From positions 5,272,896-5,336,895 of the forward strand of contig OY282377.1 of the NCBI GenBank assembly GCA_958295785.1: 64,000 bases of DNA. Reading direction: 5' to 3'. Position 1 is the stretch's first letter. Every line of letters starts with the position of its first letter. This DNA comes from an uncultured Latescibacterota bacterium. GTDB taxonomy: Bacteria > Latescibacterota > UBA2968. The notes under the pieces were generated by a model that searched no databases, was not told the origin of the DNA, and saw only the letters and a list, made by a program, of their open reading frames with translations. The translations under genes and the position numbers were made by a program. Of the stretch, positions 3,891 to 39,745 are shown in pieces.

Positions 3891-4568
3891 TCAAACCGTG
3901 CCGACACCTCGTGGTGATCCACTTCGGGAAGCGGGTGCGACCGTGCCGGCGTTCCGCCGCATCCGCTCGAGAACAGCGAGGTGACGCATCACCTCTTGGC
4001 TGATAAAATGGTACGCATCGCGGCGCTTGTCGGGCAATTGCTCGGGGCAAAATTGAATAGGCTCGCCAAACCGCACTTGCAACCGCCCCAGGCCGAGCAT
4101 TGTTTTCCAGATATTCACTGTACCCGAAATATATACGGGTATGACAGGGGCCTGTGTGCGATACACCAACATGCCAACCCCCGCCTTGGGGCGCAAGAAA
4201 CCGGGGCCTTTATTGCGCGTGCCTTCGGGAAAAATGAGCACGGGATCGCCGCTCTGCAAAACTTTCGTCCAAATCAACAGCGCGCTGCGGTCACCCCGGC
4301 GCCGATCAACGGGCATGGCGTGCAACTTGCGAATCAACTTTCCCAACACCGGAATGGGGAAAACTTCGGCTTTGGCAAGATACCAAAGTTCGCGCCCTGT
4401 GGCAACTCCAATCATTACGGGATCGACCAAAGAGCAATGGTTGGCCGCCAAAATCGCAGCACCAGATTGGGGAATGTGATGCCGCCCTTCAACGCGCAAC
4501 CGGAACGCGCAAACGACCAAGGCGTAGGCCAGCCACCAGCAATAGCGATAAAATGTCATTTGTGTCAT
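3891..4568 (-). CDS. plsC: 1-acyl-sn-glycerol-3-phosphate acyltransferase
   Basis: Transfers an acyl chain to lysophosphatidic acid to make phosphatidic acid at the inner membrane. The acyltransferase motif I is NHCSLVDP (HX4D). Motif III is FPEGTRN and the PVIPVYISG strand follows. A hydrophobic N-terminal segment (YCWWLAYALVVCAF) is the membrane anchor. About 225 aa, normal for the PlsC family. It lies between cmk and rpsA, an order found in many bacteria. Two ATGs (4568 and 4559) are possible starts; neither has a strong ribosome site. Confidence 0.9.
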   Translation of the reverse strand: MTQMTFYRYCWWLAYALVVCAFRLRVEGRHHIPQSGAAILAANHCSLVDPVMIGVATGRELWYLAKAEVFPIPVLGKLIRKLHAMPVDRRRGDRSALLIWTKVLQSGDPVLIFPEGTRNKGPGFLRPKAGVGMLVYRTQAPVIPVYISGTVNIWKTMLGLGRLQVRFGEPIQFCPEQLPDKRRDAYHFISQEVMRHLAVLERMRRNAGTVAPASRSGSPRGVGTV

Positions 4569-7632: not shown

Positions 7633-8151
7633 CTATCTTTTGGTGGCAATTGAAGGCGCGGAGGGCGCGTTTTGTGTCTCCAAAGACTCATTGACTTGTG
7701 GCACACTTTTGGGGGCGTTAGGAGTCTTTGTCGGCCTAACCGAAAGCCATATTGAAATGATGACACCTATTGAGGTAATTACGACACCTATTGCGGTAAT
7801 CATGACCATCAGGTTGCTGTAAAAAAGCCGATCCGTATTTGCAGTTATACGCTTATCTACATCGTCAAAACGCTTGTTCATATCGTCTTTGAGTTCGGAT
7901 ATATCGGTTTTGAGTTCGGTTCTGAGTTCGGATATATCGGTTTTGACTTCTTTGACTTCAGTTTTGAGTTCGGATATATCGGTTTTGAGTTCGGATATAT
8001 CGGTTTTGACTTCTTTGACTTCAGTTTTGAGTTCGGATATATCCTTACGGATATATTCTAAATGCACCACAGTCAAGCTATCGGACGCCTCAACGCGCAC
8101 GGGCAACAAGCCCGATACGACCAGCGTGAAAGCAATGATTAAAATAGCCAT
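7633..8151 (-). CDS. Secreted/anchored coiled-coil protein with DISELKT repeats
   Basis: Not a recognised family. From the ATG at 8151 (GAGGGTG just upstream) it has a signal-like segment ILIIAFTLVVSGLL. A heptad-rich stretch built of DISELKTEVKEV and DISELKTD units (residues ~38-100) then forms a long coiled coil. A hydrophobic segment (MITAIGVVITSIGVIISIWL) and a Pro/Ser-rich tail follow. The repeats are also DNA repeats. The architecture resembles stalk proteins anchored near their C-terminus; a function is not assigned. Upstream in-frame codons to 8247 lack a ribosome site. Confidence 0.6.
   Translation of the reverse strand: MAILIIAFTLVVSGLLPVRVEASDSLTVVHLEYIRKDISELKTEVKEVKTDISELKTDISELKTEVKEVKTDISELRTELKTDISELKDDMNKRFDDVDKRITANTDRLFYSNLMVMITAIGVVITSIGVIISIWLSVRPTKTPNAPKSVPQVNESLETQNAPSAPSIATKR
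7889..8043. repeat. Tandem 21/42-bp repeats inside the coiled-coil gene
   Basis: The word GAGTTCGGATATATCGGTTT recurs five times, including two copies of a 42-bp unit that adds GACTTCTTTGACTTCAG. Each 21-bp word is seven codons, one heptad, so repeat gain or loss would lengthen the coil without a frameshift. Confidence 0.85.
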
Positions 8152-9044: not shown

Positions 9045-10103
9045 TCATGTCTTCTCTCGTTTTTTCATTCGATCTCGCGCTTTGCGAGAAATTCGATTCC
9101 ATATTCCCGTGAACCCCATCGCCTTTTTTACGGCAGAGAGCGTTTCGTTCGCAAGGGCTTGTGTTTTGAGCGTGCCTTCGTAAATCACCTGTTCGACATA
9201 TCCCGACTGCGCTGCAAAATGCGCGCGGCGTTCGCGGATCGGGGCGAGAAACTCGTTGAGCGCGCACGCCAATTTGTCTTTGACCTCCACATCGCCCACG
9301 CGGCCCTTGCGATAGCGGGCTTTGAGATCGCCGACCTCATCGACATCGGGATTAAACGCATCGTGATACGCAAACACGGGATTGCCTTCCACCGTGCCCG
9401 GAATATCGGCGCGAATGCGTTTGGGATCGGTGTACATCCCGCGCACTTTTCTTTGCACGGTCTTTTTATCGTCAGACAAAAAGACCGCATTGCCCAGGCT
9501 CTTGCTCATCTTTGCCTGCCCGTCTGTGCCCACCAACGAGGGCACATCGCCGATGAGGGGTTTGGGAATGGGAAACACATCGCCGTAGTAGTGATTGAAG
9601 CGCCGCGCAATTTCTCGCGTGACTTCGACGTGCGCCTCATTGTCCTTACCCACCGGCACGACATGCGCGCGGGGCATCAAAATGTCCGCGCTTTGAAGCA
9701 CGGGATAGCCAATCAGGCCAAACGGAATGGCCTCATCGGTCATATTCGCCGCACGCGCCATCTCTTTCACGCTGGGCAACCGCGCCACGCGGGGCAATGT
9801 CACCAGCATTTCAAAAAACAAATTCAGCTCATAGACCGCGGGAATCGCGGACTGCAAGTAAATGGTCGATTTCTCGGGGTCGATGCCCACGGCCAAATAA
9901 TCCAAAACCATCTCGTGGATATTTTCCCGCAACGCATCGACGTATTCTTTTTGCGGTTGCGTGGTCAAGGTGTGCAAATCGGCCACCAAAAAATAGCACT
10001 CGTACTCGTCTTGCAGGGCCACGCGGTTTTTCAAGGACCCCACATAGTGCCCCAAATGCAGCCGCCCCGTGGGCCGATCACCGGTTAAAATCCGTTTTTT
10101 CAT
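9045..10103 (-). CDS. trpS: Tryptophanyl-tRNA synthetase
   Basis: Class I synthetase charging tRNA-Trp. [10 protein letters not shown] (residues ~13-22) is the HIGH motif and KMSKS lies at ~199-203. [13 protein letters not shown] and [12 protein letters not shown] form the Trp/ATP pocket, typical of bacterial TrpS. 352 aa with a Lys/Arg-rich tail is slightly longer than usual. It starts 6 nt after the HNH-nuclease gene ends, so the two are probably cotranscribed. Confidence 0.95.
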
Positions 10104-10109
10104 ATCTGC

Positions 10110-10640
10110 CTAATCGTCCATAAAAAGATAGGGCCGCCAGCGGCGGTCGGGCACGCCGATGTGATGGCGAATAAAGGTCACGCGATTGGGCGACTGCGGC
10201 TTTCGCAACAGCGCCAAACCGGTTTCAGCGGGCGTGCGGTCGCCTTTGCGGTTGTTGCACCGGTGACACGCACACACCAGATTGTCCCATGTATCGCGGC
10301 CATTGTGGGAGCGCGGGATGACGTGGTCAATGGTAAATGGCCCGCGCCGAACACCGCAGTACTGACACTGAAACCCATCGCGTTTTAAGATGTTGCGCTT
10401 GGTCAACGCGAGCGGTTTGGGCGGCACGCGCACATATACCGCCAAGCGCACCACGCTCGGCACGGGAAAAGAATCGCGCACCGTGCGGATACGCAAATCG
10501 AGCTCTTCAACGACCTCGGCGCGGCCTCGAAAAATCAGCACAATGGCCCTGCGTACAGAACACACATGCAGCGGTTCGTAACTCTGATTGAGCACCAGCA
10601 CGGACTGATTGAGGATTGTGGGCATTGTCACTTGCATCAT
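10110..10640 (-). CDS. HNH endonuclease
   Basis: 176 aa. The N-terminal half (LNQSYEPLHVCSVRRAIVLI..RGRAEVVEE) is the conserved lead of a widespread chromosomal HNH family. The HNH core is CQYCG (~92-96), IDHVIPRS with the catalytic His, the WDNLV Asn, and CHRCNNRKGD closing the zinc site. Its role in the cell is not established; it is often next to housekeeping genes, as here beside trpS. A good promoter lies at 10752-10780. Confidence 0.85.
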   Translation of the reverse strand: MMQVTMPTILNQSVLVLNQSYEPLHVCSVRRAIVLIFRGRAEVVEELDLRIRTVRDSFPVPSVVRLAVYVRVPPKPLALTKRNILKRDGFQCQYCGVRRGPFTIDHVIPRSHNGRDTWDNLVCACHRCNNRKGDRTPAETGLALLRKPQSPNRVTFIRHHIGVPDRRWRPYLFMDD

Positions 10641-10751
10641 AAGTGTCTCGCAAATTGCGGTCAGTGGTCAACAAAACGAGCTCTTCGGGAGGGGAGACAG
10701 GGCTGATAGCCGACAGCCCAAAGCCCATCCCTCACTGGACCAAATCTCTAT

Positions 10752-10780
10752 GATATATCGCATTGACCACGGGGTGTCAA
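10752..10780 (-). promoter_or_regulatory. Sigma-70-like promoter for the HNH-trpS pair
   Basis: On the minus strand TTGACA, a 17-base spacer and TATATC are read, about 110 nt before the HNH start. The -35 is perfect; the -10 matches four of six consensus bases. Confidence 0.6.
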
Positions 10781-10857
10781 GACTTAATTCACTGATATTG
10801 TTGAAGTTTGGCGTGCGTGCCAATGCAAAATGGGATGGGGCATTGGGTCACTGCATC

Positions 10858-12057
10858 TCAAATTTTCGCCGAACTTTGCGGAGAAACATCCGCCAATCTC
10901 AGCGGCTTGCGATGCACTGTTGCGGTGAACAAGCAGCCATCGCGGTCATCGACAAAATCGATCTGCGGCCATACTTCTAAGGCGCGCTTGATGCCCGAGC
11001 CGAGTCCGTGATAGGGTAGCAACCCCTTGGCCACATAAGAAATGAGAATCGGGTTGCGAATATTGGAATTGCCGGTGCGAATTTTCTCCACGGTCAAGTT
11101 ATTGGGCAAATGGCCCGGACTGATAATCTCAATGCGGTTGTCAAAAATGAACAGGCGAATTGGCGCACTCACTAAATAGTCTCGATGCACCAGCGCGTTG
11201 ACCAGCAACTCCTCGAACACGCTTGGCGGGATTTCCGGCACCCCCGGCGCATTGACGCCGCGTCCGGCCTGTACCTTGTGCAGGTTGCGCATCACAAAGG
11301 CCAAGGCATCATCAAAGCTCTTGGGCAATGGCCCGTCGAAAACCTCTGTATCGACATAGTCTGTCGCGTGAATCTCGTTGCCGGGATAGCGGATGGCCTT
11401 TACGACAAATTGCGGCGCGATCCACTCTGGCCGTTCGGCGAACAGCAGGACGCCCGCCAAGTTTAGATGTCCATCCTCGGTGGCGAGATTCATGTTCTGG
11501 AGCAGTCGAGTCATTTCTCCAGCGGAGTCTGGGTATTCCCAATTATAGACATCGCGCAGAAAATCGCGAAAGCGCAATTTGTCCAGTTTGTCAATACCCG
11601 CTTTGGTGGGCAATTCATTGGCGTAAAACTGTGCAGAAAATTGGAACAACCGCCGCAGTTCTTCCTTGGAGTTCACCCGTCGCTTGTCCGATCCGGTCTT
11701 CAGCCAGATCACGCCGTTCTTGTCGAAATAGGGTTTGTCGATCCCGTTGGGAACGGTCAGCACAATCACGAGGCGGTCATTATCCAGTGCCACATTCTCC
11801 GTCTGTACCGTCAAAGGGCTACGCACCGATTGACTCGCGGCGTTGCTGATGAGTTGGTTGATGCGAGAGACATCCTCTCTGCCAAGCCCCGGTGCAGTGC
11901 CGTCATCCGCCACGCCAATAAAAATTGTGCCGCCATTGGAATTGGCAAACGCCGCCATCTCAGCGGCCAGCGATGTGCTGTTGCGTACATTGACCTTAAA
12001 CTGCCGGGTACTGTCTTCGCCGAGGGCGATTTGGGAGAGAACGTCAAATCGGTTCAT
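10858..12057 (-). CDS. AlbA_2/Schlafen-type ATP-binding protein (RecG-like helper)
   Basis: ~399 aa. N-terminal AlbA_2 (SLFN-type) domain: EDSTRQFKVN, AAFANSNGGTIFIGVADDG and GREDVSRINQLI. C-terminal GHKL-like module: EELLVNALVHRDY, RLFIFDNRIEIISPGHLPN and GNSNIRNPIL. Proteins of this shape are annotated as transcriptional regulators or putative DNA-binding ATPases, and some occur in defence loci. It starts at 12057 inside the upstream stop (ATGA overlap), so it belongs with the DUF1828 gene. The molecular activity is not shown by the sequence. Confidence 0.8.
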   Translation of the reverse strand: MNRFDVLSQIALGEDSTRQFKVNVRNSTSLAAEMAAFANSNGGTIFIGVADDGTAPGLGREDVSRINQLISNAASQSVRSPLTVQTENVALDNDRLVIVLTVPNGIDKPYFDKNGVIWLKTGSDKRRVNSKEELRRLFQFSAQFYANELPTKAGIDKLDKLRFRDFLRDVYNWEYPDSAGEMTRLLQNMNLATEDGHLNLAGVLLFAERPEWIAPQFVVKAIRYPGNEIHATDYVDTEVFDGPLPKSFDDALAFVMRNLHKVQAGRGVNAPGVPEIPPSVFEELLVNALVHRDYLVSAPIRLFIFDNRIEIISPGHLPNNLTVEKIRTGNSNIRNPILISYVAKGLLPYHGLGSGIKRALEVWPQIDFVDDRDGCLFTATVHRKPLRLADVSPQSSAKI

Positions 12058-12824
12058 GCCGCTAATAATTCCCTGGATTCTTCTCGTTGTGACCAAGGCA
12101 CGGGTTTGATATCCCAATTTTTCAACGTCCCAATCGTCGATAGCGGGACATTGGTATTGCTATCGTTTAGAAAGGCAAACAGCATGGCATCGGGCGACCT
12201 CATTTCCCTCGTATCCAGCCATTTGACCACCAGTGCGTCCGCCGAATTTTTCTGAGGATTTGCCACGGCTTGCACAATGCGCTCTGGCTGTGTGCGAGAC
12301 TTGGGTATGAGAAAATTAAACATGTAATCGCAACCACTCTTGCCTGTGAACTTGATATTCGGCGTATAACGAATATCCGAACACTCCAACCAGTCCGTTA
12401 CATCCTCCAAAAAAAGACCAGCGACATAAGGGGAGGCGAGAAAAAAAAGGTCGTTTACCGACAGCATGGCTTGGATAATATTGTGTTTTTTTAATGAAAA
12501 ATTTTCCGGCGTGGTGTGGACAGTCAATTGATCGCCCTCCATCTGCACGCCAAATCCCGCCAGCGTTGTCTTTAACAATTTTCGACGTTTCGGCGTATCG
12601 AGAGGGCAACCCGAGTTGATGAGATCATCGATGATATAACCATCATCCGTGAGAATAAATCCATTGCCTTCCCTACACGCATAGATCTGCAAGCAGTCGT
12701 TATGGCGATCCAGATACGGCGTCGTGATCTCGACCCAGGCCGTACCGATCTCCTTGAGAATGGTTTTATCCCTCAGCCAGCGCGTGTATTCATTGACCAG
12801 CTTGTCGATTTCTCGGATCATCAT
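12054..12824 (-). CDS. DUF1828/DUF1829 domain protein
   Basis: 256 aa. The N-terminal part matches my memory of DUF1828: WVEITTPYLDRHNDCLQIY, GFILTDDGYIIDDLINSG and KLLKTTLAGFGVQ. The C-terminal part matches DUF1829: SGCDYMFNFLIPKS, VKWLDTRE and FAFLNDSN. The family has no proven function; the fold is thought to be mixed alpha/beta. It overlaps its neighbours by ATGA at both ends, making a compact three-gene unit (12821-13258, this gene, 10858-12057). Confidence 0.7.
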   Translation of the reverse strand: MMIREIDKLVNEYTRWLRDKTILKEIGTAWVEITTPYLDRHNDCLQIYACREGNGFILTDDGYIIDDLINSGCPLDTPKRRKLLKTTLAGFGVQMEGDQLTVHTTPENFSLKKHNIIQAMLSVNDLFFLASPYVAGLFLEDVTDWLECSDIRYTPNIKFTGKSGCDYMFNFLIPKSRTQPERIVQAVANPQKNSADALVVKWLDTREMRSPDAMLFAFLNDSNTNVPLSTIGTLKNWDIKPVPWSQREESRELLAA

Positions 12825-13258
12825 GTGAACAACCCCGGCTGAATGGGTGGCTTAGTGACCACCTGGCAATAATCCATAAAGTCCGTTAAGGTCTGCCACG
12901 CATCCCGATAATTTTTGAAGTTATTGGGCAAAGGTATCGCCCATTTGTCATCCCATCCTTCCCGATAAATATGTAGGTGTGGGCAGGGAATTGCTTTCCC
13001 ATCTGGCTTGCGGTGCATTGGGCCACCAATATCGACACGCGCCAAAATCACGACTCGTCGCGCTCGCGTTTGGAACGTATTCTTTCGCAGTGCAATGCGG
13101 CCCCGGGTGATGTCCAAGCTAAATTCTTCGCGGCGATCATTGGAATACAAAGGGATTCGCAACGCGCCACCCAAACCGGGAAAGGAAAATTGCTCGTTTC
13201 CCATGTAATGCTTGTCGAGTTTTAAGAGGGAATCGGCTTCCCGTTGTGTCAGATTCAT
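12821..13258 (-). CDS. DUF6978-like small protein
   Basis: 145 aa from the ATG at 13258. It opens MNLTQREADSLLKLDKHYMG and ends with HLHIYREGWDDKWAIPLP and a DFMDYCQV tail. This resembles the DUF6978 family, which I recall next to DUF1828 proteins; the assignment is from memory. The frame extends to 13294, but that would overlap gcvH. The stop overlaps the DUF1828 start by 4 nt. Confidence 0.55.
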   Translation of the reverse strand: MNLTQREADSLLKLDKHYMGNEQFSFPGLGGALRIPLYSNDRREEFSLDITRGRIALRKNTFQTRARRVVILARVDIGGPMHRKPDGKAIPCPHLHIYREGWDDKWAIPLPNNFKNYRDAWQTLTDFMDYCQVVTKPPIQPGLFT

Positions 13259-13274
13259 TGGGGTCACTTTCTCA

Positions 13275-13655
13275 TTAATCGAGAAGTCCGGCATAAGCAG
13301 GGGCGTCCATCAGGGCATCTGTTTCGGAGGGGTCTGACAGGCGCACTTGAATGATCCACCCATTTTCATAGGGTTCGGCATTGACCAGAGCCGCATCGTC
13401 TGTCAACTCCACATTGACGTCGATCACCTCGCCCGAGACTGGGGCGATGAGATCGGACACGGTCTTGACCGCTTCAATCGTGCCGTAGGGTTCGCCTTGC
13501 ACAACCCAATCGCCGACTTCGGGCAATTCCAAAAACACGATATCGCCCAATTCTCCTTGAGCGTAATCCGTAATCCCGCAGGTGCCCACATCGCCCTCGA
13601 TCCGAACCCAATCGTGATCGCTGTTATAGTACAGATCTTCCGGTATATTTGCCAT
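13275..13655 (-). CDS. gcvH: Glycine cleavage system H protein
   Basis: 126-aa lipoyl carrier that shuttles the aminomethyl group between the P, T and L proteins. The lipoylated lysine is in GTIEAVKTVSDL (K64); GITDYAQGELGDIVFLELPE is the family signature. No gcvT or gcvP is near; gcvH instead follows accB-accC, a pairing of lipoyl and biotin carriers that may reflect lipoate supply rather than glycine catabolism. Confidence 0.93.
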   Translation of the reverse strand: MANIPEDLYYNSDHDWVRIEGDVGTCGITDYAQGELGDIVFLELPEVGDWVVQGEPYGTIEAVKTVSDLIAPVSGEVIDVNVELTDDAALVNAEPYENGWIIQVRLSDPSETDALMDAPAYAGLLD

Positions 13656-16575: not shown

Positions 16576-16992
16576 TCAATTCAGCAGTCGGATAAAGCCT
16601 GCTTGCTCAAAGTGGCGATCAGTTGTCAAGGCGTCGGTCAATCCACGCTGTTGCATCACGACAAAGCCCGCGCAATCCACGAGGCTCCATTTTTTATCCA
16701 ATCGGTTTCCGAATAACTGCCATGCCGCCTCGTCTAAGGACAGGTCAATGTGGACAACTTCGCCCCAAATCATTGAGCGGATGGTCTGAATATAATCCAG
16801 AATATCCGATCTTGATACACGTAAGGGGCTAGTAAAGAGGGCGACTAATTCACTCAAGACATAGTTTGTCGTGACGACACGCCCGTTTTGTTGTTGCCAC
16901 TGCGTCATCAACTCGACGGCCTTCGCATGATGAGGTTCAGTAGCAACAAAAAAGCTGGCTCATCCCGACGTATCTACAAATACCTCATTCAT
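16576..16992 (-). pseudogene. PIN-domain toxin-like gene with one in-frame TGA
   Basis: Read from the ATG at 16992, the frame is MNEVFVDTSG-stop-ASFFVATEPHHAKA and then an uninterrupted 111-codon PIN domain (TTNYVLSELVAL, WSLVDCAGFVVMQQ, TTDRHFEQAGF). The catalytic acids D7 (VDTS), E (LSE) and D (SLVD, TTD) are all kept. The TGA (16960-16962) replaces the Trp usual after VDTSG. The start overlaps the stop of the restriction-modification gene by 8 nt, so it was its operon partner. A single base (TGG to TGA) separates it from an intact VapC-like RNase. It could also be a base-call error or a read-through product. Confidence 0.8.
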
Positions 16993-19900
16993 TATCAACG
17001 CCTCGCATTTCTTTTAGCAATGCTTGTCCAATATACTCGTCGTGTCTTTCGCCAATGTCTGTGACATCGCAGGTCAACGTGCCTGCTAATGCCAGTAGGG
17101 GGTCGCGTTCGGGCCGATGTTGGACTTTCAGTTCCTCTTTACCCTCAATGGTGCGGATGATCTCCAAACTGTCGAAAAAGAAAAGGGGTTTTCGCACGGG
17201 ATGTTTTCTGTCAAATAGTCGCTCGAAGATGGCGCGTAGGGCAGACATTTTATCGCCGGTGATTTCCTCAATGGGAGACAAATGCTCGTCCAACAGCGGT
17301 TTGAAGAAGTACTTGCCAGCGCGATGCAGTTCATCGGTCAGGTAGATTTCATAAACCAGCCCGTCAATTATTTGCTCAAAATATTTGACCATCAGGTAGT
17401 CGCGGGCATGTGCTAAATTTTTGCCATCCGTAGAGGGCTGCTTCTTGAGGTAGATGATATAATCGACAATGATTGCGATAAGGTCGTTCTTATCGGCGGT
17501 GATCTTGGGAATGGGGATGGTTTCTAAATAGATCTTCTTCCAGCGCAATGTTCCCATACCCGATGTTGGCGCAATCTGATGTAGATACCAGCGAATCAAC
17601 TTCGCATTGAGCACGGCGCAAAGATATTTGATGTTCTTTCCTGTCGCCATAAATGCAGTGGCTTCGCAATATATTCCGCTGTCATCGTAAGCAAAACGCC
17701 CGTTTTCAACTAGTTCAATCCAAACCAGCTTTTCTTTTTTAAAATCTTCGTGGTAAGTGGTTGCATCCTGAATCTCAAACCATGAGTGCTGTGTCTTTTT
17801 GCGAGACCGGCCACCGCCGGGCAAATTTTTACCGCTTTGTTCCAATCGATCTTGACCGAAAGACAGTAGATGCTCCTTGACAGAGGGGTAGTCGTCAATA
17901 TCCAACTGTAATGCGGGAAATGTCGTAATCAACCACAGTCCCGCCCATTGCGCTTGGTATCGCTGAATGTCTCGCCCGCGTAGCACGGGCTTGATAATCT
18001 CGGCGGACTTCGGGTCTGCGGCGACCAACGCCTCTTTGATCTCATTATCGATGATGAAGGCGTCATTGAGTCCAGTCGTTACGCCGCGATAGATAGACAC
18101 ATCCCAGTCTTTCAGCGGTGTGCCGGCGGCCTCCATCTTATCCATAATGGACTGCTCAATGGCGGACAGCGCACTCCACGGCCTCTCCTCTCGCGGACGC
18201 AACTGCCCCCAAAGATTCTCCTCCGGCGGGAAGGCTTTATCGGGCAGGCGATCCATATCCACCGCCTTGCAGACCGCATCACTTTTGCCGCTACGCGCTA
18301 TCAGAATGTTGGTGTCAACGATGGCGTTTTCAAAAACATCCTTGCCCATTTCCAACAACTGCAACGGCGTGTGTTGCTCGGCGAAATAGCGGCGCGTGGA
18401 TCTGCCGTATTGCGCCTTTAGCCAACTGTTGGACGTGATATAAGCGATCAGGCCGCGCTGTGGCGTGAGCAGTTGACAGCCTTTTTCGTAGAACAGTTGG
18501 TAGATGTCGCCGGTGGAGGCGAAAGTGGTGAAACCAGCGTTTTGGTAACGGCGGCGCAATTCTCCTCTGTTCTTTTGCAACTGAATGTACGGCGGATTGC
18601 CGATCACCACATCGAACCCATCGGCGACGCCGAACATATACTCGGGATCGAACCAACTGGCTTTGGCGTTTTGGTCGTAGGGATCCCAATGCGTGATCTT
18701 ATTGGCATCATCTTCGGGAAGACCGGCGGCGTTGAGTTCTTCTGCCAATGCACGGCGCAACTTCGTGTCCTCATCTCTGCACGCGAGTTTTTTCGGGCGC
18801 GTGGTCGCGTGAAAATGTCGCTCGCGGTTTTCCGTCAGTTGCGTTTTCAGCCCCTCAATCTGCTGACGGAACAAGTCCAGTTGATTCGCAGCTTTGAGGG
18901 CTATCAGCGTATTCGCCGCTACAAAGCGCGTCTCCAAATTCGGCAGCGGCTTGATGCCGTAGTTGGACGCGGTCGCGTCCGGTTCTTGCTCGATGGCGAG
19001 GGAGATGAAAAAGCGCAGCTTGGCGATCTGCGTGGCTATCGTCTGAATATCCACGCCGAAAATGCTGTTTTGGATCAAGTACAACTTGCGCCCAAAGTCG
19101 CCCGAATACCGCTCGAAGGTGTCGCTGATCTCATTGAGTTCGGCTTTGCGTTCTCGTGGATTTTTCGTATCAAACGCCATGTCTGCCTTTGCGCGGGCGC
19201 GTTTTTTTTGCAAGGTTGCCCAGCGGTGGTTGTCGGGGTCGAGGCGGCGCAAGGCCATGGTCATCTTGTGCAACATGCCCATTGGAAACGCGCCGGAACC
19301 GACTGCGGGATCGAGCACCCTGATCTCGGAAATCGCCCGCACAATGCCCTCGGTTTCCTCTGCCTCAAACAGTTCATTGGCGTCGTCGAATGCGGCCTCA
19401 TAATCCAGTAAATAGCGCAACCGATCTTGCCACAACCCTGTATCGCCATCACTTGGCACGCACGCCTGAGCCAATGCCGCGACCAATGCCTCATCCACCA
19501 TATAATCCACCACAGCGCGCGGCGTGTAGTAAGAGCCTGTTTGCTTGCGGGCAGTGTCGCGGGTTTCGGGATTGTACGCGGCGAGAAGATTCTCGAACAC
19601 CTTGCCGAGAAGCTCCGGGTCGAGCGCGACTTCTTGCTCAACGGGCGTGTTTTCCTCCACTGTGAACTTGTAGCGATTGAACAGGGGGATCAGTCCATCG
19701 TCGTCAAAAAACAGGCGGTTGGGGATGGCATGGCCGCGGCGTTGGGCGGGGTTGTCGGTAAAGCAGTCGATGCGATAGCCGCCATCGCGGATCGCTTCCT
19801 CGCTGTCGAGGCAGTCGAACAGGCCGCCGTTGATGAAGGGCGTTTGCGCGAACAGAGCGAGCAACTGGTTGGGATCGGCGATCTCGTTCTCATACCGATA

Positions 19901-20908
19901 GCGGGAGAAATCGCGGTGCGTAACATTGCTCCCCTTGCTAAAACCGCGTCTGTTGATCTCCGTGTTCAGAGTGGCGAAAAACAGATTTTGCAACACGGCG
20001 CGATAATAGGAATCGCCTGTATCGCGGTCGTAATTCTTCAGCAATTTGGCGATTCGATTCTCAATGAACAGATTCTCGGCGATCAGATTTTTCTCTTTGA
20101 TGAACCAAACGAACATCAGCCGGGTGATCAGGCGGATGATATGTTCTTCAAGCGGTAGGGCTTTGGCTTGATCGGCGGGAAAGGTGGCTTCGCCAACAGC
20201 CCGCTCAAACCAACCGAACAGATCGCGGTAGAACCGTCGGTTCAGTGCCTCAGTGTCCAGCGCGTTGAGCCAAGCGGCCAGCAGGCCGTCAAAATTGTGC
20301 GGCTTGTCGTGGGTATTCATCCACTGCAAGCGTTGTGGCAACGACAAGTCGGACAAGATGTCCAAGTGGGCGCGATGCGGATTTTTGGGATCGATCTCCC
20401 GGATCAGCGACACATGGCCGAGCACATGGCGGTGGGGATCGCGCTTGTGTTCGCGGCGGTGAACAAAGGATAGGGTCAGGTGGTCGGTAGCGGTCTTGAA
20501 CAGCGCCACGGTCGGCGCGTTTATCCGCTTGTTGATCTCGCGGGTGAATTGGGCGTATTGCCCGCGCGTATAGATTTCGCCATCCAGTTCCAGGGCGACA
20601 AAGAGAAAACTTCGCGCATTGCCCGAGTCAAAGCCGTCGGTACTTCGCGCCGCTGCGATTTCAGTATCGGTCACCTGAAAGAGAATCCGCACGGATTGAA
20701 CGTTGTCGCGGAATGCCTGTTCGGTCTGCGTGTTCTCGTTTGGCGCGGGGAATTGATAGAGGAAGTCATTCGCGCTACCCGAGATGTCTAAGGTGCGTTC
20801 GCTCTCATAACCGAGGACGCCAAGCAGATGTTTGGCCGCCCCTGTGAACTCTGCGTTGGGCAACGCGGTCAAGGCATCCCCAATTCGCGTTTTGATGTTG
20901 TTGTTCAT
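16985..20908 (-). CDS. Type IIG restriction-modification enzyme (Eco57I/PglX-like)
   Basis: 1307 aa. N-terminal ~430 residues: a region with an Eco57I-like nuclease (RSFLFVALELDGEIYTRG, VALFKTATDHLTLSFVHRRE). Around 460-540 comes the methyltransferase: TGSYYTPRAVVDYMVDEAL, then motif I LDPAVGSGAFPMGML. NPPYIQLQKNRGELRR at ~772 is the catalytic motif IV of adenine-N6 methylases. A target-recognition region (residues ~900-1150) and a C-terminal helical part follow. One polypeptide should both methylate and cut. The PIN gene overlaps its end; a spacer of family-2 repeats lies upstream. Confidence 0.85.
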   Translation of the reverse strand: MNNNIKTRIGDALTALPNAEFTGAAKHLLGVLGYESERTLDISGSANDFLYQFPAPNENTQTEQAFRDNVQSVRILFQVTDTEIAAARSTDGFDSGNARSFLFVALELDGEIYTRGQYAQFTREINKRINAPTVALFKTATDHLTLSFVHRREHKRDPHRHVLGHVSLIREIDPKNPHRAHLDILSDLSLPQRLQWMNTHDKPHNFDGLLAAWLNALDTEALNRRFYRDLFGWFERAVGEATFPADQAKALPLEEHIIRLITRLMFVWFIKEKNLIAENLFIENRIAKLLKNYDRDTGDSYYRAVLQNLFFATLNTEINRRGFSKGSNVTHRDFSRYRYENEIADPNQLLALFAQTPFINGGLFDCLDSEEAIRDGGYRIDCFTDNPAQRRGHAIPNRLFFDDDGLIPLFNRYKFTVEENTPVEQEVALDPELLGKVFENLLAAYNPETRDTARKQTGSYYTPRAVVDYMVDEALVAALAQACVPSDGDTGLWQDRLRYLLDYEAAFDDANELFEAEETEGIVRAISEIRVLDPAVGSGAFPMGMLHKMTMALRRLDPDNHRWATLQKKRARAKADMAFDTKNPRERKAELNEISDTFERYSGDFGRKLYLIQNSIFGVDIQTIATQIAKLRFFISLAIEQEPDATASNYGIKPLPNLETRFVAANTLIALKAANQLDLFRQQIEGLKTQLTENRERHFHATTRPKKLACRDEDTKLRRALAEELNAAGLPEDDANKITHWDPYDQNAKASWFDPEYMFGVADGFDVVIGNPPYIQLQKNRGELRRRYQNAGFTTFASTGDIYQLFYEKGCQLLTPQRGLIAYITSNSWLKAQYGRSTRRYFAEQHTPLQLLEMGKDVFENAIVDTNILIARSGKSDAVCKAVDMDRLPDKAFPPEENLWGQLRPREERPWSALSAIEQSIMDKMEAAGTPLKDWDVSIYRGVTTGLNDAFIIDNEIKEALVAADPKSAEIIKPVLRGRDIQRYQAQWAGLWLITTFPALQLDIDDYPSVKEHLLSFGQDRLEQSGKNLPGGGRSRKKTQHSWFEIQDATTYHEDFKKEKLVWIELVENGRFAYDDSGIYCEATAFMATGKNIKYLCAVLNAKLIRWYLHQIAPTSGMGTLRWKKIYLETIPIPKITADKNDLIAIIVDYIIYLKKQPSTDGKNLAHARDYLMVKYFEQIIDGLVYEIYLTDELHRAGKYFFKPLLDEHLSPIEEITGDKMSALRAIFERLFDRKHPVRKPLFFFDSLEIIRTIEGKEELKVQHRPERDPLLALAGTLTCDVTDIGERHDEYIGQALLKEMRGVDNE

Positions 20909-21880: not shown

Positions 21881-24800
21881 TCACTCTTCGAATGGGCTTC
21901 TCTGTGCATCACGTTCTGCATCTCGCTCGTAGCCCCTTGCAAACGCACGCATTGCAGTTGCAAATCTCGAATAACCTGCTGTCTCAAGGGCCTCTGCCTT
22001 TTCGCGATTTCGTTGCGCCAATTCTCGCTCTTCTTTTCCGGCAGTGAAGGCGTGGACACCCCGCTGATTGAAAAGCTCAATTGTAAAGCCAGAGCGCATT
22101 TTTCCCGCATCTCTTGCGTTCAATGCCGACGCGACTGCTTGATGTATCCATAGGCCGTTGGGATCTTTTGGTGCATATGTCAATACGTGGCCGATCCGCC
22201 CCTGAGCAATTTCACTGTGGCCGGTCTCTTTCGTAATTCGCTTTGCCTCCTTCAACCAATTCGTGAATTTTTCTTCATCAAAGGCGTCATCGGAAAGTTT
22301 GCCGGGACACCTTCTCCATTTGTTTAGGAGCCTGTAGGCATTCATGGCCTGCGACTTTCTTTCTTCGCTCGGTTCGCCGTCGCTTTCAGCCTCGTTCTTT
22401 GAACGAAAGGCGAGAGCGACGATCTCAGCGAAGAAGGCGGGGGCCGAGGCAAGACGTTTTTCGAGTGTAACAGGTGATCCGGATGAGAAACGATCCAGCA
22501 GCAGTGGTAGGAAAGACCATTCAATCTCAAAAAGAGCATTTGGGTCAACAATGGGTGAATCCTGAAGGCACTTTATCACCTCGATAGTCTGATATTGATC
22601 TAGCTGAACGTCCACATCGGGCATCTCCAGCACCGCGAGAAGTGCTCGAATTGCAAGGTCTTTCTTAAATTTTTTCTGATCGTTGACCGTGTGAGAAACA
22701 CAAAGGATAGCTTCGGGAGCCCGTCCATATTTGAGCAATTTCTCAATCGCTAAAGTCAAGTCTCGATTTGGCCCAAACGGATTTACGGCGACCTTTTGCC
22801 AATAGAGCCTCTCATTCTCTCTGCCGAGGTGTTTTTCTACTCGACTCCAGACGCCCTCCTCAAATGGAAGCAAGACTAGGAACGCGCTTTTCTGTATGTT
22901 ATTCCAAGCCTTTCCAAAAACTTGATCAACCCAGGTCCAACTCAATTTCTGGATTCGTTCTGGAACGAATTCAGATACAACCCGTTTCTCAGTTTCGTCT
23001 TCAGTATTAAGCAGGGACGGAAGAATTTCCGCCTCAATATCTTCATTTTCGATACTACCCAAAGCACATCCAACTTTGCCAGGTAAAGCAACACTCTGAG
23101 CGAAACGCAGTACAGCAGACACGCCTCCTGTGTCAAGAATCTTTTGCACAGCATCCTGTCGAGCTTTATCAAGGCGTTTTTGCCGTTCCTCGTAATTTTT
23201 CTCATCAGGAAAAAGATCAAAATCTTGACCACTAAAGAGATAATGATATTTCATCTCTGGGGTTTCGGGTGCCAAAGTATTTGCCACAATCTCAATTTTT
23301 GAAATTCTATCTTCCGGCATTGCCCATTCAGCATCCGCAAATTTTCGGTGTCGGCGCACTAGACCATCTAACCTTTCCCAGATTAAAACGCGATCAGCCT
23401 CGGGCAAAGCTACGACCTCTTTTGAGGCTAAGTGTTTTAGAAGATTATCGACTGCGTGATTGGGTAAAACGGGCATACAGTTGATCAACTCACCCAAGTT
23501 TTCAGTGCTCGTCTTTGCGAGTTCTATTGCCATCTCGGTGTAAATCGTTATTTGTTTCCCATACTCTGACCGTAGGATCCCATCCTTCCAATCTTTCGGA
23601 ATGTAGTTCCGCCAAGTCGGTTGATGACATCCAATAGTGAAACCGTGATCGTGTGGCAATAGACCTATAATTAACTGCCAACCTACTTCTGGTTGCTCTT
23701 GGAGCACGGTTTTGACAGCTATCTTCCGCTTCTCGAGTGAGGCACTCGTTTGTATATGCCAAGGCAAAAAAATATCGACGAGGGAATTTAACGGTCGATT
23801 TGCCCAATTCCCTCCGGGATCAATTGAAGCAAGGTCGGATAGAATCACGGCTACCCGCGAAAGGAAATCTGGATGCCATGCAAGGGTTTCCAAGGCCCAT
23901 AATAGGCCACTCATGTAGTTCTTCCCTCCTATGCCTCCACTGCTTTCTTGGGCAAAAACTTCATGAAATGGAGATTGGATCAAATCCTCCAATGCTGACT
24001 CGACAGCGTCGAGAAACTCGTTGGGAGCCGCTTCAGCGAGAAGTGGCAACAGCGAATCCAAACTCGCCCAGCGGTCCCAGTCTGCATTATTCAAGAGTTG
24101 TCTGACGGTACGGGTTGCCACGGTTTTGACTTTTCCAAACGAACACTCGGAAAGTGCTTCTAAGCGACTTCCAACAAGGGCGAGTGTTTCTGCCATGCCT
24201 TCGCGGAGCAGGCGGGAATGTTTCAGTTGTTTGCCGCGAATGCTTGCCAAGAATCTTTTCTCTTTGGGCAAGTCAAATTTTGGATCCCTTTCCCCTAGAA
24301 CTACAACGGCTGTATCTTCGAGCCGATCAAGGTCTTCATCCGTTATTCTGTTACCCAACGCGCTCCATGCTTCCCTCCGCACGACGAATCGCCATTTTTC
24401 ATCGCGTTGAATTAGGGGAGAGTCCGAGCGAAGCGCGTCAGATCTCAGGGTCTCGATCCACTCCCCATATTCTTTTCCCAACAAGTTCTCCAAAGCTTTC
24501 TGATCCGCCGCGTTCTTTCCATCCCACTTTCCGGCGAGCCCCGCTTGTGCAATGAGCCTTGCATTGTTCCATGTCGGATAGGGCGGCACAGTCCCAGGTC
24601 CACGTAAATTTCTGAGTAGAGCGGACAGTCGATCACCTCCAATGCCCGCTAGTTCTCGCGAACGGACATCCGAGTAATCTGCCTCTTTCAGAACCTTTTC
24701 TATTTGGGATTGAGATGGACTTTGTAGTCTGATGATCTCAGAATTTCCCCCTGCGAATGCACCACAAAGCGGAACGATCACCGCGTGTCCTTTTCGCGTG

Positions 24801-25819
24801 GCAATTGTTAGGAGCTCAGATCGCTCCTCCGACTCCAAATTGAGCCGGGGATTAGCGACCAAAATGTGTGATTTCCGCACCTCTACAACCGCACGCCAAG
24901 CGTCTTCTTCAGCAATATAGAGGCATCGGTTGGCGTAATCCCGGGCAATTTCCTCATCAAGAGTCTCAATGTAAGCTGCAACAAAATCGGCGACATCTTG
25001 CTCGCCTTCTGCAAACAGTAGCAACTGCAACTTTTGCGAGGTGCCCTCAAACAATGCCTGAAGCGCATTGCAGGCATGGCTACGCCCTTCCATAAATAGC
25101 TTTGGTGGAATGGGGGGATCGCCAGGTCTAGTCAGAGAGACGATATTTTCCCAATGCTCCCTCGGTGTCGAAATCCCGCCCAAGCTTCTCGACAAGCCTA
25201 TCTCTCTTGCCATCCACTGGCCCACAGCGGGAAATTCCCGCAACCAATCGGCGAGCCTGACGCCGTCGATAATGCGGATATCTTTCCAACCTTTATCTTT
25301 TCTGCGCTCCAGCCACTTTGTTTGTTCCGGCTCTCCCCATCTAGCGAAACGAGGAGTCACAAAAACAAATGAACCTTGGGCCCGATCATCGGCGGAGAGT
25401 TGTTTCGTTCTCTTATGGAAGTCTTTGGTAGCCTTGGTTTGCGAATCGTTCCCCGTGCCGAGCTCCCAGTACGATCTGCCATCCGGGACGAACTCGAGAA
25501 ACGCCGATTCAGCCTCAACGATTCCATCCCAATCGCTTTGATTTACAGCGTCTCCGTAGGGAATGCGGCACACAGAGGCATTAGAGATAGACTGCTTTAC
25601 AAGCAAGTAGATCAGCTCTGGTATTACAGTTTGGCTGTTTATGCTATCTGCATATTGTTCGAAATCAGCGGCGCGGACGATGTGGGTATTGTTTGGAAAA
25701 ACCCGCGCTCTGGCGGCCTCTCGTCTTTTTCGACGCGCCTCTGGTCCACGATAAATTTCAGGGGTATTCTCATTCATATAGGTTTGGTAATCAAATTCAA
25801 TCTCTTTAGTCGTATCCAT
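21881..25819 (-). CDS. Giant nuclease-STAND-like protein with a BrnA-like head
   Basis: 1312 aa from the ATG at 25819 (GGAGAA 9-10 bases upstream). Residues 1-45 (IEFDYQTYMNEN, IYRGPEARRKRREAARARV) look like an antitoxin head and follow brnT with a 14-nt overlap. From ~47 (HIVRAADFEQYADSINSQTV) begins a domain of large defence-type proteins: QSDWDGIVEAE, VPDGRSYWELGTG, FVFVTPRFARWG and IRIIDGVRLADWL. D96/D98, E119 and K129 could form a PD-(D/E)XK-like site. Residues ~225-420 sit where a STAND NTPase is expected, but no GxxGxGK(S/T) is present (LQLLLFAEGEQD at the loop position). The remaining ~850 residues are helical-repeat-like. I infer an antiviral or toxin protein; no partner is proven. 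Confidence 0.6.
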   Translation of the reverse strand: MDTTKEIEFDYQTYMNENTPEIYRGPEARRKRREAARARVFPNNTHIVRAADFEQYADSINSQTVIPELIYLLVKQSISNASVCRIPYGDAVNQSDWDGIVEAESAFLEFVPDGRSYWELGTGNDSQTKATKDFHKRTKQLSADDRAQGSFVFVTPRFARWGEPEQTKWLERRKDKGWKDIRIIDGVRLADWLREFPAVGQWMAREIGLSRSLGGISTPREHWENIVSLTRPGDPPIPPKLFMEGRSHACNALQALFEGTSQKLQLLLFAEGEQDVADFVAAYIETLDEEIARDYANRCLYIAEEDAWRAVVEVRKSHILVANPRLNLESEERSELLTIATRKGHAVIVPLCGAFAGGNSEIIRLQSPSQSQIEKVLKEADYSDVRSRELAGIGGDRLSALLRNLRGPGTVPPYPTWNNARLIAQAGLAGKWDGKNAADQKALENLLGKEYGEWIETLRSDALRSDSPLIQRDEKWRFVVRREAWSALGNRITDEDLDRLEDTAVVVLGERDPKFDLPKEKRFLASIRGKQLKHSRLLREGMAETLALVGSRLEALSECSFGKVKTVATRTVRQLLNNADWDRWASLDSLLPLLAEAAPNEFLDAVESALEDLIQSPFHEVFAQESSGGIGGKNYMSGLLWALETLAWHPDFLSRVAVILSDLASIDPGGNWANRPLNSLVDIFLPWHIQTSASLEKRKIAVKTVLQEQPEVGWQLIIGLLPHDHGFTIGCHQPTWRNYIPKDWKDGILRSEYGKQITIYTEMAIELAKTSTENLGELINCMPVLPNHAVDNLLKHLASKEVVALPEADRVLIWERLDGLVRRHRKFADAEWAMPEDRISKIEIVANTLAPETPEMKYHYLFSGQDFDLFPDEKNYEERQKRLDKARQDAVQKILDTGGVSAVLRFAQSVALPGKVGCALGSIENEDIEAEILPSLLNTEDETEKRVVSEFVPERIQKLSWTWVDQVFGKAWNNIQKSAFLVLLPFEEGVWSRVEKHLGRENERLYWQKVAVNPFGPNRDLTLAIEKLLKYGRAPEAILCVSHTVNDQKKFKKDLAIRALLAVLEMPDVDVQLDQYQTIEVIKCLQDSPIVDPNALFEIEWSFLPLLLDRFSSGSPVTLEKRLASAPAFFAEIVALAFRSKNEAESDGEPSEERKSQAMNAYRLLNKWRRCPGKLSDDAFDEEKFTNWLKEAKRITKETGHSEIAQGRIGHVLTYAPKDPNGLWIHQAVASALNARDAGKMRSGFTIELFNQRGVHAFTAGKEERELAQRNREKAEALETAGYSRFATAMRAFARGYERDAERDAQRSPFEE

Positions 25820-26075
25820 TGAGATATTCTCCTTTCGCGTCAAATGCGGTGATAAGACGATTTAGCGGCATATCTTCTTCGGAGCAGATCACAGCCAACA
25901 CCCGACCATTAACTGTTGCCCTTACCCGCATCCATCGATCTTCATGGCCTTGTGGATCTAAGGTTTCGTATCCTTTTGGATCATCAAATGCGGAAACCAC
26001 CTCGTAAAACTGGACTTTATGCTTTCTTTGGACTTCTCGATATTTGTCTTCGTCCCATATAAATCCAACATCCAT
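25806..26075 (-). CDS. brnT: BrnT-family toxin (ribonuclease)
   Basis: 89 aa. Core features of BrnT: FIWDEDKYREVQRKHKVQFY, VVSAFDDP, EDRWMRVRATVNGRVLAVI and a C-terminal LITAFDAKGEYLNGYD, where most members have RIISAR. Toxin of a type II module that cuts mRNA; the antitoxin BrnA normally follows. Here the following gene is the giant protein, overlapping by 14 nt, and no separate brnA is present. GGAG lies 8 bases before the ATG. Confidence 0.8.
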   Translation of the reverse strand: MDVGFIWDEDKYREVQRKHKVQFYEVVSAFDDPKGYETLDPQGHEDRWMRVRATVNGRVLAVICSEEDMPLNRLITAFDAKGEYLNGYD

Positions 26076-36221: not shown

Positions 36222-36393
36222 GCAGTTTGTCCAATTCAAGCTGTAAGACGTGTTCTGCTTGTGGCGTGGTAAAAGTTGCCCCTGCGTGAACGGGTCTTTG
36301 TTTGCGACTGTGGCTATGAAACTGACCGAGATTTGAACGCGGCCCCAAACATTCATCGGGTTGGGATGTCAACCCTTGCAGGAGAAGATGTCA
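36222..36393 (+). pseudogene. TnpB C-terminal relic (copy 1)
   Basis: KTCSACGVVKV in one frame and LPLRERVFVCDCGYETDRDL followed by NAAPNIHRVG in another reconstruct the zinc finger and last RuvC aspartate of TnpB (IS200/IS605). A frameshift at GCCCCTGCGTGA separates them. A hairpin like the right end of such elements (AAGCCCCTTTGCTTCAGCAA, 36441-36479) follows. The rest of tnpB is absent. Confidence 0.75.
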
Positions 36394-36492
36394 GATGGCT
36401 TGTTGCTTTTGCCGCACTCTTTGTTGATCGCACAATCTCCTTAGAAGCCCCTTTGCTTCAGCAAGGGGAGTTCGTCACTCAGGGGTATCCCC

Positions 36493-37446
36493 ATGGCAGA
36501 ATACGATACGATTTCCAAACATTTGATTCAAACCTACCCTGCCGATTTCGTCCGCTTCACCCTCGGACGAGCCGATGTCGAAATCCGCGCAATCCTCGAC
36601 CCCGAGATTCCTAGGGTTGAAACGCGCTTAACCGATAGCCTGATTCGCGTGTGGATTGATGGCGAGGAGGTCTTGGTACACACGGAATTTCAAACCACCG
36701 ACAGCAGGGATACGCCCATGCCGATCCGCATGGCCAGCTATATCATCCGGCTCATTGAATACTATGGCCTGCCGGTCTATTCCCATGTGATCTACCTCCG
36801 GCCCGATGCCGGGCGACGCGATGAAGGGCTTTACCTCCAAAAGCATCCGGACTACCCAGTGGTGGTGCGCTATAAGGTGATTCGGCTGAACGAGATAGAC
36901 GGGCAAGACATTGTTGAGGGCGGTCATCCGGGTTTGCTTCCATTCGCGCCATTGATGAAGCGTCCTGCGGGGATGACTTCTGAGGAATGGTTGCGTCAGT
37001 GCATTCGCAGGACTGATGCCGTGTCGTTGGCGCAGGCAGAAAAGGCTAACTTTTTGGGCGGCTTGGCAGTATTAAGTGGGTTGGCGTATGATCCAAACAC
37101 TATCACGAGTATCATTTCTCAGGAGGGTCTTATGGACGCGATTATGCGTGAATCATCGTTTGCCCAATACCTCAAGGAACTGGGCGTTAAACAAGGCATT
37201 GAGCAGGGCATTGAGCAGGGCATTGAGCAAGGCATTGAGCAAGGCATTGAGCAGGGCATTGAGCGAGGCATCCAAGAGAGCATCCGAGAAGCGTTGGCGG
37301 TTCGCTTTGATGCGGGTGTGGCCGGCCAGTTCGCTGATCGCATTGCGGTCATCGACGATTTGCAACGGCTCAAGCAGTTGCTTCATGCAGCGGTGCAAGT
37401 CAATAATCTGGCGGCATTTCAGCGTGTGTTGGATGCGGAGGCCTGA
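36493..37446 (+). CDS. Rpn-family recombination-promoting nuclease-like protein (copy 1)
   Basis: 317 aa. The N-terminal ~200 residues follow the Rpn/YhgA PD-(D/E)XK pattern: LIQTYPADFVRFTL, LIRVWIDGEEVLVHTEFQT (the E-x-Q active strand) and MASYIIRLIEYYGLPVYSHV. A middle helical part (LAQAEKANFLGGLAVLSGL) leads to a C-terminal repeat tract VKQGIEQGIEQ... with six 4-residue units, then a helical end. Family members nick DNA and raise recombination; multi-copy variable paralogues are typical. Confidence 0.8.
   Translation: MAEYDTISKHLIQTYPADFVRFTLGRADVEIRAILDPEIPRVETRLTDSLIRVWIDGEEVLVHTEFQTTDSRDTPMPIRMASYIIRLIEYYGLPVYSHVIYLRPDAGRRDEGLYLQKHPDYPVVVRYKVIRLNEIDGQDIVEGGHPGLLPFAPLMKRPAGMTSEEWLRQCIRRTDAVSLAQAEKANFLGGLAVLSGLAYDPNTITSIISQEGLMDAIMRESSFAQYLKELGVKQGIEQGIEQGIEQGIEQGIEQGIERGIQESIREALAVRFDAGVAGQFADRIAVIDDLQRLKQLLHAAVQVNNLAAFQRVLDAEA
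37195..37266. repeat. 12-bp minisatellite GGCATTGAGCAG, 6 units
   Basis: Six in-frame units coding GIEQ (last GIER) in rpn copy 1. Third-base changes (CAA/CAG, GAA/GAG) separate the units, so they are not all recent. Confidence 0.95.
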
Positions 37447-37585
37447 CGCGATTTCCCGCTGAATGACAAGCGGAGCATTGCGTAACGTCAAATGTTCACT
37501 GAAATCAGCTTTGGGCTTTCAGCCCCACCTCTCCACCGCGGATTGCTTGTTTTGCTGACCGCCAACCGCTGACAACGAAAAACAA

Positions 37586-37620
37586 AAGCCCGAGTTCCTT
37601 GCGAACCCGGGCTTGTTTTG
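37586..37620 (+). terminator. Rho-independent terminator after rpn copy 1
   Basis: AAGCCCGAGTTC / GAACCCGGGCTT with one mismatch, followed by GTTTTG. The same structure at 40365-40400 ends the array. Confidence 0.75.
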
Positions 37621-37970
37621 TGGCCCCTTGTCTGAATCAGGATAAACTTCTGTCGAAGTTGTACGCCGTTATTCAGGATTAAAGGATGAACAGGATGAGG
37701 CGACGCGGGTCACTGTCTGAATCGCGGATTAACCAGATGATGCAGATGACGCGGATTGGGCGGCGCCGGTAGGGCAGAGCGTGCAGGTGGCATAAAGGAT
37801 GTAGCAGGTGCGGAGGACGCAGTGAGTGGCAGGGGGTGGGGTTAATCCGCGCAATCCCTAAATCCGCGACAATCCGCGATTCAGACAAGGGACTGACCGC
37901 TTGATGGCGGGAATGGGTGACGAACCACTTGACAGAGCGAGAGATATTGCAGATTATTTATTGATGTTAC

Positions 37971-38142
37971 GCAGTTTGTCCAATTCAAGCTGTAAGACGT
38001 GTTCTGCTTGTGGCGTGGTAAAAGTTGCCCCTGCGTGAACGGGTCTTTGTTTGCGACTGTGGCTATGAAACTGACCGAGATTTGAACGCGGCCCCAAACA
38101 TTCATCGGGTTGGGATGTCAACCTTTGCAGGAGAAGATGTCA
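37971..38142 (+). pseudogene. TnpB C-terminal relic (copy 2)
   Basis: Repeats copy 1 with the same internal frameshift, so the decay preceded the duplication. Confidence 0.75.
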
Positions 38143-38241
38143 GATGGCTTGTTGCTTTTGCCGCACTCTTTGTTGATCGCACAATCTCCTTAGAAGCCCC
38201 TTTGCTTCAGCAAGGGGAGTTCGTCACTTGGTGGTATCCAC

Positions 38242-39135: not shown

Positions 39136-39170
39136 CGCGATTTCCCGCTGAATGACAATCCGAGGAATGG

Positions 39171-39710
39171 TTGCGTCAGTGCATTCGCAAGACCGATGCC
39201 GTGTCGTTGGCGCAGGCAGAAAAGGCTAACTTTTTGGGCGGCTTGGCAGTATTAAGTGGGTTGGCGTATGATCCAAACACTATCACGAGTATCATTTCTC
39301 AGGAGGGTCTTATGGACGCGATTATGCGTGAATCATCGTTTGCCCAATACCTCAAGGAACAGGGCGTTAAACAAGGCATTGAGCAGGGCATTGAGCAGGG
39401 CATTGAACAGGGCATTGAGCAGGGCATTGAGCAAGGCATTGAGCAGGGCATTGAGCAGGGCATTGAGCAGGGCATTGAACAGGGCATTGAACAGGGCATT
39501 GAGCAGGGCATTGAACAGGGCATTGAGCAGGGCATCCAAGAGAGCATCCGAGAAGCGTTGGCGGTTCGCTTTGATGCGGGTGTGGCCGGCCAGTTCGCTG
39601 ATCGCATTGCGGTCATCGACGATTTGCAACGGCTCAAGCAGTTGCTTCATGCAGCAGTGCAAGTCAATAATCTGGCGGCATTTCAGCGCGTGTTGGATGC
39701 GGAGGCCTGA
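39171..39710 (+). pseudogene. Rpn 3' fragment (copy 3), 13 GIEQ units
   Basis: Only the last ~180 codons remain, from LRQCIRKTDAVSLAQAEK. No nuclease domain and no ribosome site before the TTG. The frame is intact, so it is an array by-product rather than decayed coding. Confidence 0.8.
39375..39530. repeat. 12-bp minisatellite GGCATTGAGCAG, 13 units
   Basis: Thirteen units in rpn fragment 3; variants GAACAG and GAGCAA are interspersed in a pattern that suggests unit-block duplication. Confidence 0.95.
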
Positions 39711-39745
39711 CGCGATTTCCCGCTGAATGACAATCCGAGGAATGG

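Follow-up and report, generated by a model that had tools for sequence, protein, structure and literature searches.

An open field within phage immunity is that of the widespread candidate gene pairs built into restriction operons. Phage-defence candidates (PDCs) of this kind have been collected by 'guilt-by-embedding' in immune systems (PMC12988326; PMC10855318), and for the PDC screen PMC12988326 cites Payne et al. 2024. TgvAB, from a type I restriction-modification (RM) locus of V. cholerae, showed that embedded genes can form an independent restriction system (PMC11411939). In DS-6/HipAD a HipA-like kinase and a partner with DUF3037 and DUF1829 domains protect against phage (PMC13092281); this was the sole functional mention of DUF1829 that we found in the literature searched. 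DhiT, a protein of the DUF4160 family, is growth-inhibiting (PMC8198452).

Here we analysed a set of three genes, A, B and C, in a 64,000-nucleotide stretch of DNA from an uncultured Latescibacterota bacterium (the window; Table 1). Gene A matched the PADLOC model PDC-M24A (7.6e-57, residues 2-145 of 146; residues of A are numbered from the frame window:12821-13261, which adds one residue before the ATG). Gene B, adjacent to A via the ATGA joint, matched PDC-M24B (8.8e-101, residues 5-256), and gene C gave weak matches only, to Argonaute-associated models. The A-B pair is a known defence candidate, hence its link to defence is not new, and the preliminary description of the locus cannot be followed where it called the module undescribed. 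The name PDC-M24 was not found in the literature searched, nor was any experimental test, toxicity, binding or phage data for A-B. None of the three genes has an NCBIfam model. Our main reading, to which we give a probability of just under one half, sees A-B (PDC-M24) as a mobile pair that acts against phage in the manner of a toxin-antitoxin system, with A as the effector. It builds on the obligate pairing, the genomic contexts, the exchange of partner, the predicted folds and the state of the motifs, all of which were observed.

Pfam and the sequence confirmed all three genes, as well as the ATGA at each joint, where the preliminary description had placed them, with all frames open and the overlaps intact on the minus strand. 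The set had also been described as inserted between gcvH and trpS. This was correct on the gcvH side, where 16 nt separate the gcvH stop from the start of A, but on the other side the HNH gene lies between the set and trpS. The insertion is bounded by the gcvH stop and by a conserved promoter-like segment (10724-10799) upstream of HNH-trpS. Terminal repeats flanking the insertion were looked for and no clear ones were found. A similar short string, GTGACCC(C)AATG, occurs at both insertion ends and was too weak to be called a target duplication. In a promoter/terminator scan the signal was no higher than in shuffled sequence.

Other features of the window were recorded. A type IIG (Eco57I-like) restriction-methylation protein is encoded at 16985-20908 (-), upstream of A, and together with a weak PIN-domain frame (16576-16911, -) it spans 3.3-7.7 kb upstream of A. 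Adjoining the type IIG gene is a 1320-aa open frame (21881-25843, -) for which neither Pfam (E<=1e-4) nor PADLOC gave a match. A 12-bp tandem repeat (CARGGCATTGAG) forms three arrays (37192-37283, 39360-39535 and 39935-40050) inside repeated similar reading frames from 36276 to 40241, and a 21/63-bp tandem repeat lies inside a reading frame at 7880-8043.

Table 1. Coordinates of the three-gene set, its flanks and the stand-alone DUF1828 genes on viral contigs. Positions without a contig handle are those of the window.
Feature	Position	Strand	Remark
Gene A, DUF6978 protein, 145 aa	12821..13258	-	Pfam DUF6978 E=2e-43; ATG at 13258
Gene B, DUF1828+DUF1829 protein, 256 aa	12054..12824	-	Pfam DUF1828 1e-27, DUF1829 2e-27
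Gene C, AlbA_2 + HATPase_c_4 protein, 399 aa	10858..12057	-	Pfam SLFN_AlbA_2 4e-20, HATPase_c_4 3e-12
A/B overlap, ATGA	12821..12824	-	joint reads CACATGATGA
B/C overlap, ATGA	12054..12057	-	joint reads GGCATGAACC; same joint in L050 and L084
gcvH, core gene, flank upstream of A	13275..13655	-	Pfam GCV_H; present in 11/11 genomes of the genus
HNH endonuclease gene, downstream flank	10110..10640	-	conserved; adjoins gcvH in sister genomes
trpS, beyond the HNH gene	9045..10103	-	Pfam tRNA-synt_1b
Insertion relative to sister genomes, approximate extent	10800..13264		blastn against L144, L146, L148, L149 and junction sequences
Stand-alone DUF1828	L177 5001-5381		viral contig
Stand-alone DUF1828	L178 5001-5450		viral contig
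Stand-alone DUF1828	L179 2976-3371		viral contig; related group L179-L182
Stand-alone DUF1828	L180 4992-5387		viral contig; related group L179-L182
Stand-alone DUF1828	L181 4992-5387		viral contig; related group L179-L182
Stand-alone DUF1828	L182 4992-5369		viral contig; related group L179-L182
Stand-alone DUF1828	L197 ~4001-4366		viral contig; HMM labelling only

Predicted anatomy of A and B

In an alignment of 69 sequences of the A family, H83, P86, H95 and H97 were invariant. Position 85 was Asn in 68 of the 69 and is Lys in the window copy. The AF2 models of A (pLDDT 87) and B (pLDDT 91.5) were built from input alignments that left out five rows from annotated public records. Compared with the PDB, the A model had no credible match by Foldseek (best E 0.25) or VIA-align (best Z 3.7), which does not imply a new fold, and neither A nor B found a useful hit among PDB sequences by phmmer or by profile search. 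The P-H-x-H-x-Y segment of A resembles the DUF4160 toxin family including DhiT; the hhalign match was short and weak (18 columns, P 0.0018, probability 14.8%); reversed controls gave P 0.36-0.44 and a probability of 0.1-0.2%.

The model of B showed two halves. Residues ~13-133 matched small, protein-binding, chaperone-like folds in the PDB (8q8o, Z 9.3; 3cxj, Z 9.2), among them type III secretion chaperones (Z about 8). For residues ~130-256 a PD-(D/E)XK core fold was recognised from the matches to AF1548 (1y88; Z 11.6, 3.1 A over 110), Can2 (7bdv; Z 11.1, 2.9 A over 115; Foldseek E 8e-4) and EndoMS (Z 9.9). D166 and D170 are conserved in the family, the latter in 60 of 65 sequences, and the window copy has N170, as do four other members. 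On the strand after D, positions 183-187 contained no conserved acidic residue or Lys of a (D/E)xK motif; position 185 was Q in 44, R in 10 and K in 6 of the 65 sequences. Since the conserved D166 and D170 are not followed by an ExK, nuclease activity of B was not supported.

This result bears on the reading of A-B as a two-protein restriction factor, in which the PD-(D/E)XK domain of B would cut DNA and A would recognise a modification or an end. The fold of the C-terminal half, the frequent location of A-B in the slot between hsdS and hsdR and the comparable layout of TgvAB as a precedent (PMC11411939) point in this direction. We nevertheless consider it unlikely, because the ExK is missing on the expected strand, D170 is replaced in five members including the window copy, and phages retain only the non-nuclease half of B, as described below.

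The toxin-antitoxin-like reading assigns other tasks to the same parts. A, whose toxicity we infer, would be the effector, probably acting through the invariant H-x-N-P-D...P-H-x-H site. B would neutralise A by keeping it inactive through the chaperone-like DUF1828 half, and would sense nucleic acid, or interference with restriction, via the catalytically degenerate PD-(D/E)XK-like DUF1829 half. The presumed trigger is a phage that disturbs the host restriction machinery or DNA; A would then be released and the infection aborted. The A-B pair thereby gains a concrete predicted anatomy, an effector-like A and a B that combines a chaperone with a degenerate nuclease fold. Further points in favour of this reading are the DUF1829 domain in the partner of HipA in DS-6/HipAD, a broken A beside an intact B elsewhere in the own genome, and DUF1828 halves borne by phages. 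Points against it are the shortness of the A/DhiT similarity, the missing PDB match for the A model, two survey loci that have B but no A, and the signs of decay in the window copy.

Free-standing DUF1828 halves of B were found on viral contigs (Table 1). These proteins of ~120-145 aa end near B residue 122-131 and are 51-71% identical to window B, and neither A nor DUF1829 was detectable near them by tblastn. On L181 and L182 the gene directly before the DUF1828 half matches phage DNA methyltransferase families. Truncation recurs at a domain boundary across several lineages, which suggests a use of its own for the half-protein. Decoy binding of A would explain a stand-alone half in phages. 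Judged from sequence, the half may be a decoy antitoxin that binds and silences A of PDC-M24 systems, and as such a dedicated anti-defence protein; we hold this to be possible, albeit doubtful. If true, this would make A the effector and place the binding of A in the DUF1828 half of B. A possible phage counter-gene can be named in this way, and both the system and its putative inhibitor are directly testable in laboratory strains.

Genomic contexts of the A-B pair

We surveyed A-B in a single scan that covered 80 loci in 80 genomes from many phyla, 79 of which were assessable for gene order. In 77 of these A immediately preceded B, and B without A occurred in two survey loci. A 4-nt A/B overlap was measured in at least 56 of the 77, and several other joints differed from 4 nt only because the match begins 1-2 codons inside B. 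The recurrence of the pair and its overlap across many phyla is beyond chance. Two small, co-directional, overlapping and co-inherited genes are also the layout of type II toxin-antitoxin systems.

Neighbouring hsd genes were called by purpose-built HMMs. An hsd gene was present within 6 kb of A-B in 50 of the 80 loci, and in 21 of the 34 well-flanked loci (~60%), those where 5 kb or more of sequence was available on each side of A-B. As a rough estimate, derived from ~15 hsdS places in the 5.66 Mb of the bacterium's own RM-rich genome, an hsdS within 6 kb would be expected by chance in ~3%. Nearly all hsd-linked copies were on one strand, typically in the order hsdM-hsdS-A-B-hsdR. The window copy is not placed between hsd genes, as no HSDR_N or Methylase_S match was found at its genome coordinates. 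Other copies were found in prophage lysogeny modules, on plasmids, or between core genes as in the window. In Lactobacillus prophage Lj965 and in Staphylococcus phage 37 the pair is flanked by repressor and integrase; it is also present on further viral contigs, in an archaeal virus (Halorubrum virus Humcor1), on one IncP plasmid and on one Acetobacter plasmid. A viral scan with A as the sole query found no relative.

The frequent co-directional location between hsdS and hsdR raises the idea that A-B controls type I RM: it would modulate the activity of HsdR or HsdS (restriction alleviation) without itself being an effector. About 40% of the well-flanked copies, the window copy included, are away from hsd genes, and prophage copies of A-B had no RM genes in the stretches examined, so that we regard a control module as quite unlikely.

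An exclusive location in defence islands was considered as well and rejected: of ten large neighbours, drawn from eight loci without RM genes, most were ordinary genes or had no match, and one encoded a SIR2-domain protein. The defence role proposed in the preliminary description is favoured by the PDC-M24A and PDC-M24B matches, the embedding in type I RM loci, the carriage on prophages and plasmids, and the replacement of A-B by DSR2 in a sister species.

Gene C and the gcvH-HNH site

Gene C gave a single match to PDB sequences (3lmm, 7.8e-08). In the bacterium's own genome a second A-B-C set was found at 3.472 Mb (hsdM ... hsdS-A-B-C-hsdR-YgjP), with a C of DUF4062 and HATPase_c_4 domains, and a third at 1.565 Mb (hsdS-A-B-C), with a C of AlbA_2 and HATPase_c_4 domains. 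In this third set A (L037 8736-9194; C1 ~1.566 Mb) carries an in-frame TGA beside an intact B, a C-type gene and hsdS; loss of A with B intact is what one would predict were A the costly member of the pair. Azoarcus (L050) and a deltaproteobacterial locus (L084) also have the three genes linked by ATGA at both joints, with hsdR sequence downstream in each, and the C proteins there are 24-29% identical to window C over the aligned parts. The B/C joint is thus present in two unrelated lineages besides the window, but it is not general. The three-gene order does extend beyond this strain, although A-B and C are also found apart.

C also occurs in other company. In G017 (L143 1297-13410) a C homolog (47%) is flanked by an SMC-like ATPase gene and hmaB and is located downstream of hmaA. 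A TIR-domain gene follows hmaB at this locus. In sister genome G033 the ortholog of window C adjoins HNH-trpS and is preceded by a small frame, and the sequence after gcvH is DSR2 (PADLOC Dsr2, 5e-266) in a frame open to near the contig end. The G033 pieces are on two contigs (L145 2777-4507; L142) and their adjacency was inferred from G032 (L150), in which gcvH, a shortened DSR2 start and a G033-like small frame are on one contig. By eye, the G033 contig end at the site is IS-like. Six other sister genomes (G029, G031, G034, G035, G036 and G037) have an empty site, gcvH-HNH-trpS, with ~90-120 bp from gcvH to HNH. With DSR2 replacing A-B and six sites empty, we concluded that the site exchanges defence genes and that C is separable from A-B.

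These data also bear on the idea that A, B and C form one system of three components, with C (AlbA_2 + HATPase) as its sensor or an essential part. A C-type gene follows A-B at all three loci of the own genome, and the doubly joined trio stands beside hsdR in L050 and L084. However, C does not adjoin B in most of the 80 survey loci, the own-genome C-type genes differ in domain content and length, the G033 ortholog sits with DSR2 and the G017 homolog inside an Hma system. In some type I RM loci a Fic-like frame, recognised by eye, is near or in the third slot after A-B in place of C (L042 12573-13748; L044 4803-5942). A three-component system is thus very unlikely, and the 'obligate three-gene unit' of the preliminary description has to be narrowed: A-B is the unit, and C is optional, widespread without A-B and here shorter than its sister-species ortholog. 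The window set is an obligate A-B pair with a separable helper, and C is best seen as a recurrent, separable helper of several defence modules. As an accessory nucleic-acid-binding/ATP-binding protein, it would presumably work alongside one defence module or another at the gcvH-HNH site.

Window C and the G033 ortholog (~480 aa) are 84% identical, with dN 0.09 and dS 0.83. Window C lacks the C-terminal winged-helix-like segment of the ortholog (a domain label given by eye) and ends at the repeat region. Between gcvH and HNH, G030 (L144) and G038 (L146) have GTTCGGAGAAAA repeats that resemble the 3' region of the C gene in G033. The same two genomes share a non-coding stretch between gcvH and HNH. 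By sequence, the repeats and this stretch resemble a scar left by the loss of a C-type gene. The window copy may be partly decayed, to go by K85 in A, N170 in B and the shortened C. That the whole set is what remains of a defence island and no longer functions, as these departures from near-invariant residues, the truncation of C and the scars and decayed DSR2 in sister genomes might indicate, is the least credible reading, given three open frames, intact overlaps and, for C, a dN about a ninth of dS.

Comparison with known systems

With DhiTA, a type II toxin-antitoxin system of DUF4160 and DUF2442 proteins, A-B shares the gene order, with the putative toxin first, and the overlap of the genes, and A shares the short H...P-H-x-H-x-Y motif in a strand-His-strand-strand-helix order. 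The profile similarity is weak and short, however, and B had no DUF2442 match in Pfam. DS-6/HipAD has the DUF1829 domain in common with B and is also a two-gene defence system proposed to be toxin-antitoxin-like. Unlike it, A-B is without a HipA kinase, B has DUF1828 in place of DUF3037, and A is unrelated to HipA by Pfam. TgvAB and other type I RM-embedded systems are likewise two-gene modules between hsd genes, as are many A-B copies, whereas the window set contains no domain of the GmrSD/DUF262/DUF1524 type (Pfam) and stands alone. DSR2 occupies the same gcvH-HNH site upstream of a C ortholog in G033; its proteins are unrelated to A-B, and its copies in the sister genomes are incomplete, being either truncated or interrupted where a contig ends. 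The third gene therefore appears as a helper at one chromosomal site, beside PDC-M24 in one species and DSR2 in another. The closest likeness is to PDC-M24 itself, which both proteins match over their full length with high scores and from two adjacent genes, and from which the window set differs by its third gene, joined via ATGA, and by its position outside an RM operon.
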